Shown piece by piece: positions 21,169-21,784 of a DNA stretch of 64,000 nucleotides. How positions within the stretch are numbered: position 1 is the stretch's first letter; each line of letters begins with the position of its first letter. Source of the stretch: Ascochyta rabiei (taxonomy: Eukaryota > Ascomycota > Dothideomycetes > Pleosporales > Didymellaceae); NCBI RefSeq assembly GCF_004011695.2, contig NC_082420.1:372001-436000 (forward strand). The letters are read 5' to 3'. The translations under genes were made by a program, and so were the position numbers. The notes under the pieces were generated by a model. It saw nothing but the letters and a program-made list of their open reading frames with translations, was not told the origin of the DNA and made no database searches.

Positions 21169-21174
21169 AAAAAA
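21169..21174 (-). terminator. Pol III T-run after the tRNA
   Basis: Six consecutive T on the minus strand, two bases beyond the discriminator base of the tRNA-Pro. This is the standard RNA polymerase III stop signal, and it supports Pol III rather than Pol II transcription of the interrupted tRNA gene. Confidence 0.85.
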
Positions 21175-21211
21175 GGGGTCTTGCCGCGACTCGAACGCGG
21201 GGCCTCTCGCA

Positions 21212-21225
21212 CGTTTACTTAGGTA
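21212..21225 (-). other. Canonical 14-nt tRNA intron after base 37
   Basis: Sits directly 3' of the anticodon at the universal eukaryotic site. Its CCTAAG pairs with CTTAGG around the anticodon, extending the anticodon helix as in ordinary pre-tRNAs cut by the SEN endonuclease. Confidence 0.88.
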
Positions 21226-21236
21226 CCCTAAGCGAG

Positions 21237-21289
21237 CTATCGTATGTTAGGATGGAAGAACGTATGAGGTGATCTTTGGATCGACTTAC
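21237..21289 (-). other. Intron 2 of tRNA-Pro (53 nt, GT-AG type)
   Basis: Begins GTAAGTCGATCC, has the ideal fungal branch sequence CCTAAC, and ends ACGATAG. It lies after tRNA base 26, at the D-arm/anticodon-arm junction. Confidence 0.87.
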
Positions 21290-21303
21290 AATCATACCAC
21301 TAG

Positions 21304-21355
21304 CTGGATTGTTGTCAGATGGAGCTCGAAAGCTAGGTTTGTGGGTTGAACTTAC
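21304..21355 (-). other. Intron 1 of tRNA-Pro (52 nt, GT-AG type)
   Basis: Begins GTAAGTTCAACC, has CTGAC 13 nt before the end, and ends AATCCAG. It lies after tRNA base 11, inside the D stem. Its length equals that of nuclear mRNA introns in this window. Confidence 0.85.
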
Positions 21356-21784
21356 ACCACAAGACCAAATCATGTGATTTTGATGAAAAGTTCAACAAGG
21401 CAGACATAAATATAGCCAGTTTTACGACTGTGGAGCGGAGACAGCTCCATTGTAAAATGGGCGGTGGTCGAGGTGTTGGAGCAAGGGATACGACCCGACC
21501 CACACGGACGCTAGTGAGCATCCATATTCGTGTTGACCCCACATCAACACGCACCATGTGTGGAAGAGACGGCTGCGATCCCGACCTTTGTGGAGACGAG
21601 ACGAGGAATCGACTACGCATGGAGAGATGCGAGATTTGGTGCACCGCGAAGTGATACGTGGAATGTGAAATGGGTATCTGATTGCCATGCGCCATGGAGG
21701 ACCAGCCACATGGATGTCGTAACATTTACAAGAAGACGGGTATGTGGCAGCGAAGCCAAACTATAAAAAAGAACGAAAACAAGG

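Follow-up and report, generated by a model that had tools for sequence, protein, structure and literature searches.

The splicing of tRNAs and the splicing of mRNAs are taught as two separate systems. In the available part of a recent review, tRNA splicing is classed as spliceosome-independent (PMC13149111), and the accessible text of a second source places the non-canonical tRNA introns of eukaryotes in nucleomorphs and in the red alga Cyanidioschyzon merolae (PMC4090602). Among other RNA polymerase III (Pol III) transcripts, the U6 RNA of fission yeast carries an mRNA-type intron that is poorly spliced in mutants defective in pre-mRNA splicing, and an origin by reverse splicing near the catalytic bases has been proposed for U6 introns (PMC10484740, in the portion available). 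No report of such introns was seen among the papers listed when an open-licence full-text collection was searched for spliceosomal, mRNA-type, GT-AG or non-canonical introns in nuclear tRNA genes; the collection leaves most subscription journals outside, and an earlier description may exist.

The sequence analyzed here is a 64,000-nt window in contig C16 of a 40.9-Mb, 23-contig host genome. On the minus strand of the window, from 21366 to 21176, lies a tRNA-Pro(AGG) gene in which three segments of 52, 53 and 14 nt interrupt a complete tRNA (Table 1), and the host genome as a whole contains at least 20 tRNA genes with 24 mRNA-type introns, spread over eight positions and nine isoacceptors. The favored reading, to which a probability of roughly 0.85 is assigned on the sequence evidence, is that the window gene is a working nuclear tRNA-Pro(AGG) gene and one of at least 20 split by U2-type (GT-AG) introns, that the spliceosome removes these introns from Pol III precursors, and that the SEN endonuclease removes the intron at position 37/38.

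Along the minus strand the gene reads GGTCTTGTGGT, 52 nt, CTAGTGGTATGATT, 53 nt, CTCGCTTAGGG, 14 nt and then TGCGAGAGGCCCC onward, and its 3' end is CAAGACC C, followed by C and T6. Direct reading bears out the coordinates, stems, splice motifs and T6 run given in the initial annotation, as well as the claim that removal of the three segments leaves a 72-nt tRNA-Pro(AGG): the joined exons (21366-21356, 21303-21290, 21236-21226 and 21211-21177) amount to 71 nt, or 72 with base 21176 included, and ARAGORN calls the fully joined gene tRNA-Pro(agg). Introns 1 and 2 fall at 11/12 and 26/27 (all intron positions are in this report's own numbering), off the SEN position 37/38, where the separate 14-nt intron sits with an exact register that is ambiguous by 1-2 bases.

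Table 1. Parts and flanking signals of the interrupted tRNA-Pro(AGG) gene, in window coordinates
Feature	Position	Strand	Basis
TATA-like TATATTTA, upstream	21407..21414	-	direct reading
CATCAA, upstream, likely start-site element	21380..21385	-	direct reading
Exon 1, nt 1-11, GGTCTTGTGGT	21356..21366	-	direct reading; ARAGORN call on the joined exons
Spliceosomal-type intron 1, 52 nt, D stem, nt 11/12, GTAAGT...CTGAC...CAG	21304..21355	-	same-place introns in the C1, C2 and C3 copies
Predicted branch site CTGAC, intron 1	21314..21318	-	motif position
Exon 2, 14 nt, nt 12-26 without base 17, CTAGTGGTATGATT	21290..21303	-	direct reading, ARAGORN
Spliceosomal-type intron 2, 53 nt, nt 26/27, GTAAGT...CTAAC...TAG	21237..21289	-	in the C2 copy, not in C1 or C3
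Predicted branch site CTAAC, intron 2	21246..21250	-	motif position
Exon 3, 11 nt, nt 27-37, carries anticodon AGG	21226..21236	-	direct reading, ARAGORN
Canonical-position tRNA intron (37/38), 14 nt	21212..21225	-	ARAGORN anticodon-loop intron; identical in 4/4 copies
Exon 4, nt 38 to discriminator base 21176	21176..21211	-	direct reading, ARAGORN
Intact B box GTTCGAGTC	21188..21196	-	direct reading
T6 run, Pol III terminator-like	21169..21174	-	direct reading

The recognition of this gene depends on which segments are taken out. ARAGORN called no tRNA on the unspliced gene, and with the 14-nt segment retained it called Pro(agg) if introns were allowed and Tyr(gta) if they were not. For the window as a whole, no tRNA was returned by ARAGORN, with introns disallowed or allowed up to 300 nt, or by Rfam, at the gathering score or at E <= 10. 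When every GTRNG...CTRAY...AG segment of 44-72 nt in the window was taken out singly or in pairs (80 candidates), a tRNA resulted only at the Pro(AGG) gene, as two overlapping solutions. The same scan of 200 Markov-shuffled windows gave a tRNA in 0 of 15,483 candidate splices, and a chance origin of the window tRNA is rejected on that count. Two mRNA introns of the window provide a local comparison: one of 51 nt in the Vps15 gene (4657-4607), confirmed by the reading frame, with stops in all unspliced frames, and a less firm one of 50 nt in a neighboring gene (21911-21862), where the joined frame stays open for 25 more codons. Both contain CTGAC with 10 nt after it, and the earlier claim that the tRNA introns match the length of mRNA introns in the window holds at 52 and 53 nt against 51 and 50 nt, in a small sample of two. 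The window also encodes a TYW2-like protein, whose best named match is in Ascochyta lentis (79% identity over 84% of the query), followed by Neodidymelliopsis and Macroventuria; all three are Didymellaceae, and one Curvularia-labeled protein is among the next matches. By these matches the host is a pleosporalean fungus close to Ascochyta.

Three more Pro(AGG) genes occur on contigs C1, C2 and C3, giving four copies on four contigs. Intron 1 is at the same position in all of them, while intron 2 is shared by the window and C2 copies and the C1 and C3 copies present a clean empty site. Outside introns 1 and 2 the four genes are identical at 85 of 85 bases, the 14-nt intron included. Between copies, intron 1 is identical at 30-45 of 54 columns (9-24 differ), with GTAAGTT, CTRAC and CAG kept throughout; in the 50 bases upstream, 18-30 of 51-60 columns match and CATCAA and a TATA-like stretch are common to the copies. 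The exons and splice signals thus appear constrained while the rest of the intron drifts, the pattern expected of a spliced, functional gene.

The genome-wide list, drawn from one fungal species, was built from exon patterns, splice signals combined with B box patterns, a tRNA family model and a joined-tRNA sequence search. It comprises Pro(AGG) (four genes), Pro(TGG) (three), Pro(CGG) (one), His(GTG) (four), Ser(GCT) (three), Ala(CGC) (two) and single genes for Val(TAC), Gln(TTG) and Leu(CAG). The introns lie at 10/11 (Leu, Ser), 11/12 (Pro(AGG), His, Gln and the Pro(TGG) copy C9b), 15/16 (Val and Ala C3), 19/20 (Pro(TGG) C9a), 24/25 (Pro(TGG) C8 and C9b), 26/27 (the window and C2 copies of Pro(AGG)), 27/28 (both Ala genes) and, inside the anticodon, 34/35 (Pro(CGG)); none of the 24 is at 37/38. 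Joining the exons produced a tRNA by ARAGORN in all 20 genes (18/18 and 2/2), and in the 18 genes given the same test before joining there was no call in 10 and a call with a different anticodon in 8. The joined Val(TAC) gene was labeled Leu(taa), which is put down to another placement of its canonical intron. In 19 of the 20 genes, all but Leu(CAG), ARAGORN also reads an intron in the anticodon loop, with a length of 14 nt for Pro(AGG) and 30 nt for His, and among the four His copies every difference outside intron 1 falls in this canonical intron. In Pro(CGG) (L001, C5:644709) the anticodon is divided by a GT-AG intron of 68 nt, and the canonical intron follows a few bases later; a tRNA-like T arm directly upstream of that gene gave no tRNA in 74 trial splices. 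The interrupted Val(TAC) and Gln(TTG) genes (L059, C6:565312, and L060, C6:566627) are about 1.3 kb apart on opposite strands.

The 24 introns begin with GTAAGT (17), GTAAGC (3), GTAAGA (2) or GTAGGC (2), so that 22 have GTAAG and 2 have GTAGG, and they end in CAG (18), TAG (4), CTG (1) or CAT (1), with AG in 22 of 24, both window introns included. A CTRAY branch-site motif lies 9-11 nt from the 3' end in every case, and lengths range from 48 to 68 nt, compared with 50 and 51 nt in the small sample of two window mRNA introns. The window introns were described originally as spliceosomal in type from GTAAGT, CTGAC or CTAAC and the final AG; across the genome the 24 introns agree with the U2 spliceosome in all sequence features compared except the final AG, which two of them lack. 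It should be noted that half of the introns were found by patterns requiring GTAAG and CTRAC, an ascertainment that affects these motifs. The other 12 were found without them and carry GTRRG, CTRAY and a terminal AG without exception: both window introns; the C1, C3 and first C2 introns of Pro(AGG); Pro(CGG); Leu; His C14; Ser C18 and C2; and intron 1 of both Pro(TGG) C9b and Ala C3. The two exceptions to AG are Pro(TGG) introns at 24/25, each with GTAAGT and CTAAC and each keeping the usual spacing from branch site to end: that of L077 (C8:920815) must end in TG for an intact tRNA, and the second intron of the C9b copy (L081, C9:807110) must end in AT. GT-TG ends are rare alternative 3' sites. 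G makes up 10.7% of the interiors of all 24 introns, where A and C abound, a composition that perhaps avoids pairing with the tRNA body.

Matches to the search patterns were accepted by exon sequence and joined fold and not by pattern numbers, since the numbers by themselves carry no weight: reversed patterns gave 9 matches against 16 and 16 against 18. Of those 16 and 18 matches, 10 and 6 were judged by eye to be tRNA genes, and the remaining 6 and 12 were dropped before counting. Over the genome, a GTATG 5'-site pattern gave 11 matches (control 7), six of them known tRNA genes reached via their exon letters and none new, and a pattern without the branch site gave three matches, all known genes (control 0). 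A GTAGG pattern gave 10 matches (control 8), two of them tRNA-like (Ser C18 and a decayed Gln-like locus on C16); the other eight were rejected by eye as not tRNA. The 5' sites covered were GTAAG, GTATG and GTAGG, in introns outside the variable and T arms, and the counts of 20 genes and 24 introns are exclusive of the decayed Gln-like locus and of two U6 introns, respectively. Exact-pattern scans gave 0 matches in viral contigs and, in prokaryote genome contigs, 0 matches and 2 matches without tRNA context.

The flanks of the interrupted genes resemble those of intact tRNA genes. A run of at least five T within 40 nt downstream is found in 20/20 interrupted genes, 37/45 intact genes and 5.9% of 2000 random places; a loose TATA-like set upstream in 19/20, 40/45 and 31% of random places; and a loose CATCAA-like set in 16/20, 28/45 and 14%. 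Within the last 40 nt upstream of the interrupted genes, CATCAA occurs exactly in 9/20 and TCAA in 15/20. According to the available section of one source, an upstream TATA box plays an important part in transcribing tRNA genes in certain plants and fungi (PMC3978253). All 20 genes have a B box GTTCRANYC, owing in part to the search pattern, and the distance from nt 8 to the B box is 107-163 nt; introns at 10/11 and 11/12 fall within the A box and break it. The T6 run at the window gene had been taken from the start to imply a Pol III transcript; we infer that Pol III transcribes the 20 genes. Another sign of function is that stems stay paired through compensatory changes, which affect two base pairs when the Pro(TGG) copies are compared and two when the Ser(GCT) copies are. 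The Gln-like locus mentioned above (L113, C16:350960-351230; C16:351048), about 21 kb outside the window, has a GTAGG...CTGACTAG intron-like segment at 11/12, broken stems and no T run, and neither of two trial splices made a tRNA from it. It is a dead member of the group, unlike the 20 genes.

Genes that would make the same tRNAs without splicing were sought across the genome. A pattern for the unbroken 5' half of Pro(AGG), allowing up to 3 mismatches, matched only two interrupted Pro(AGG) genes and the Pro(CGG) gene, and the same type of pattern for His matched two interrupted His genes and no intact one. Eight joined tRNAs used as DNA queries produced 28 matches, each at the locus of an interrupted gene; this search is not exhaustive, as it did not pick up the decayed Gln-like locus. 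Two Ser(GCT) copies considered as intact genes were rejected, the upstream DNA revealing that both are interrupted. Of the 61 matches of the tRNA family-model search, 42 are nuclear and 19 lie on the 55-kb contig C23, which is taken to be mitochondrial; ARAGORN decoded 42/42 of the nuclear matches and called no Pro or His among them. Only 63 of 1588 candidates were scored in that search, and four Phe-like genes were outside its list, so the tRNA census is incomplete. These four came from a search with 11 joined yeast-like tRNA sequences, which led to four places only, all matching the Phe part and decoded by ARAGORN as two Phe and two Tyr. Totals in the genome papers of relatives, as given in the portions available, also indicate that the present list is partial: averages of 138, 139 and 129 tRNAs in three pea-blight species (PMC9410150), 125 tRNA genes in Ascochyta rabiei (PMC4835772) and 145 in Didymella glomerata (PMC9643772). 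Two tRNA genes in the genome, L026 and L028, have bodies that differ at one anticodon base only (TGT versus TGC), which may mean that the anticodon shifted between a threonine and an alanine gene.

Within the genes found, all those for Pro (8), His (4) and Ser(GCT) (3) are interrupted, and this includes 4/4 Pro(AGG) genes, with a search for intact ones returning none, in answer to the question raised for that isoacceptor in the initial annotation. Only Leu(CAG), of the nine isoacceptors, has a plain sister gene among those found: L066 (C12:346920) has a GT-AG intron at 10/11, and L036 (C4:170081) has the same exons and no intron. As no uninterrupted gene for any Pro anticodon, for His or for Ser(GCT) was found, the cell would depend on splicing for those codons. 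It seems likely, if less so than the reading of the window gene itself, that this fungus has no way to make its Pro, His and Ser(GCT) tRNAs, and probably those for Ala(CGC), Gln(TTG) and Val(TAC), other than through the mRNA spliceosome, and that the decoding of Pro, His and AGY Ser codons is splicing-dependent. Two unrelated splicing machines would then act in turn on one RNA, exons of 11-14 nt would be rejoined in uncapped Pol III transcripts, one anticodon would be split and restored, and two 3' ends other than AG would be used at the usual branch distance.

A sequence of events can be proposed for the window gene. Transcription by Pol III would rely on the TATA-like region upstream and on the intact B box and would end at the T run, and the spliceosome would recognize each intron of about 50 nt through its strong 5' site, CTRAY and nearby 3' AG. 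Exons as short as 11 and 14 nt would be joined in this step, restoring the D arm and the junction between the D arm and the anticodon stem. With the tRNA body now foldable, endonuclease and ligase would remove the 14-nt intron at 37/38, after which RNase P, RNase Z and CCA addition would presumably complete the tRNA. The spliceosome is placed before SEN in this scheme because SEN needs a folded body and because the Pro(CGG) intron splits the anticodon just before the canonical intron.

Several features sit uneasily with this scheme. For the spliceosome, internal exons of 11 and 14 nt are very small, and Pol III transcripts are uncapped. Two of the 24 introns are without a final AG, and those at 10/11 and 11/12 divide the A box. 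Synthesis of the interrupted precursors by RNA polymerase II, with capping, splicing by the same spliceosome and later trimming to tRNA, would account for the broken A box and for efficient splicing of an 11-nt first exon plus leader. The downstream T runs, the TATA-like motifs shared with intact tRNA genes and the B box in all 20 genes argue for Pol III instead, and fission-yeast U6 provides a case of a spliced Pol III transcript (PMC10484740, in the part available), so that a Pol II origin is considered improbable, if the best placed of the alternatives. A separate tRNA-splicing activity that used the branch-like motif and the spacing and had no need of AG would fit the TG and AT ends, the more so as all 24 introns end 9-11 nt after CTRAY whether or not they end in AG. 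Against this, 22/24 obey the mRNA rule and the two window mRNA introns share the length and the branch spacing, and such an activity ranks as the most far-fetched of the explanations.

Two further explanations, both very improbable and about equally so, would do away with the spliceosome altogether. The initial annotation had allowed that introns 1 and 2 might be decoys in a dead gene, and more broadly the 20 genes could be pseudogenes, never processed, that hold mRNA-type introns or intron-like insertions. The decayed Gln-like locus has such a segment at 11/12, the interrupted Leu(CAG) gene has an intact sister, and in the accessible text of PMC4090602 a eukaryotic tRNA gene with an insertion in its D or T arm is assumed to be a pseudogene. 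Dead genes would hardly be expected to include four Pro(AGG) copies with identical exons and diverged introns and upstream flanks, alongside 16 further genes with the same kind of intron, nor to have T runs behind all 20 and stem pairing preserved by compensatory changes in Pro(TGG) and Ser(GCT) copies, nor to stand where the search for intact Pro, His and Ser(GCT) genes found none. Removal of all three introns by SEN through bulge-helix-bulge folds, as in archaea and C. merolae, gains some room from the action of SEN at unusual positions in some eukaryotes (PMC4090602, available text). Borders of this kind had been named at the outset as evidence against spliceosomal removal, and the strict motif, with 3-nt bulges flanking a 4-bp helix at the borders, occurs in 0/24 introns. 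In the strict form the mean central helix is 1.5 of 4 pairs, equal to random sequence (1.5). When bulges of 2-4 nt are allowed, both helices, central and outer, are complete in two of the 24 (Ser(GCT) C18 and C2), and the relaxed score averages 5.3, slightly more than the 4.7 of random sequence. SEN is an unlikely remover of the 24 introns because the strict motif is absent and the mean helix is that of random sequence. The GTAAG, CTRAY and AG motifs are, moreover, kept while the remaining intron changes, and we know of no SEN requirement for any of them. Spliceosomal removal, proposed originally from a single gene, is thus supported across the genome, with the cutting itself inferred from the letters of the introns.

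The origin of the introns can be considered in the light of introner-like elements, a source of newly gained spliceosomal introns in Dothideomycetes, the class to which the host belongs. The 11/12 introns of Pro, His and Gln resemble one another by eye in their 5' parts, a likeness to introner-like elements that leaves room for common descent or repeated copying. Unlike introner-like elements, the 16 of the 24 introns that were used as queries against the genome had no near-identical copies outside tRNA genes: all 17 matches were the tRNA introns themselves. This weighs against recent introner copying; old, diverged copies would be missed by the search, which did not report the Ala C9 intron (35/51 to a query intron). 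Filled and empty sites coexist for intron 2 of Pro(AGG), the D-loop intron of Ala and the Leu intron, which indicates gain or loss within gene families.

Should these introns be spliced as proposed, the spliceosome would be a tRNA-maturation machine in some fungi and tRNA supply would be tied to splicing capacity. tRNA gene finders would miss such genes, much as ARAGORN and the Rfam model saw none in the window. The genes would also offer a natural test of minimal exon size, of the splicing of uncapped Pol III transcripts and of 3' splice-site choice without AG, and the presence of filled and empty sites in one genome makes them a natural test of spliceosomal intron gain.

As introns, these elements are of a known kind (compare U6); as tRNA introns, no description of them appeared among the open-licence papers listed. 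The host genome has its own example of the former in a U6 gene (L105, C9:1075940-1076230) with two mRNA-type introns, GTATGT...CAG after the ACAGAGAA region and GTGAGT...CAG further on; a second U6 gene (L106, on C14) has none. The interrupted tRNA genes are like fungal U6 in that an mRNA-type intron lies in a non-coding Pol III transcript, but the transcript here is a tRNA, the introns extend over at least 20 genes and nine isoacceptors, and up to two such introns occur per gene, with a short exon between them and alongside endonuclease-type introns; the reverse-splicing origin near catalytic bases suggested for U6 is not directly applicable. The canonical SEN/Trl1 system is represented in the same genes by the anticodon-loop intron that 19 of the 20 carry, from which the 24 introns differ in position, in their length of 48-68 nt and in their splice signals. 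With the introns of archaea, nucleomorphs and C. merolae they share the presence of several introns per tRNA gene, in the D arm, the anticodon arm and elsewhere, and the precise restoration of the tRNA. The introns of archaea and C. merolae are bounded by bulge-helix-bulge or related motifs, according to the available text of PMC4090602, whereas those described here, none with the strict motif, keep GT...CTRAY...AG.
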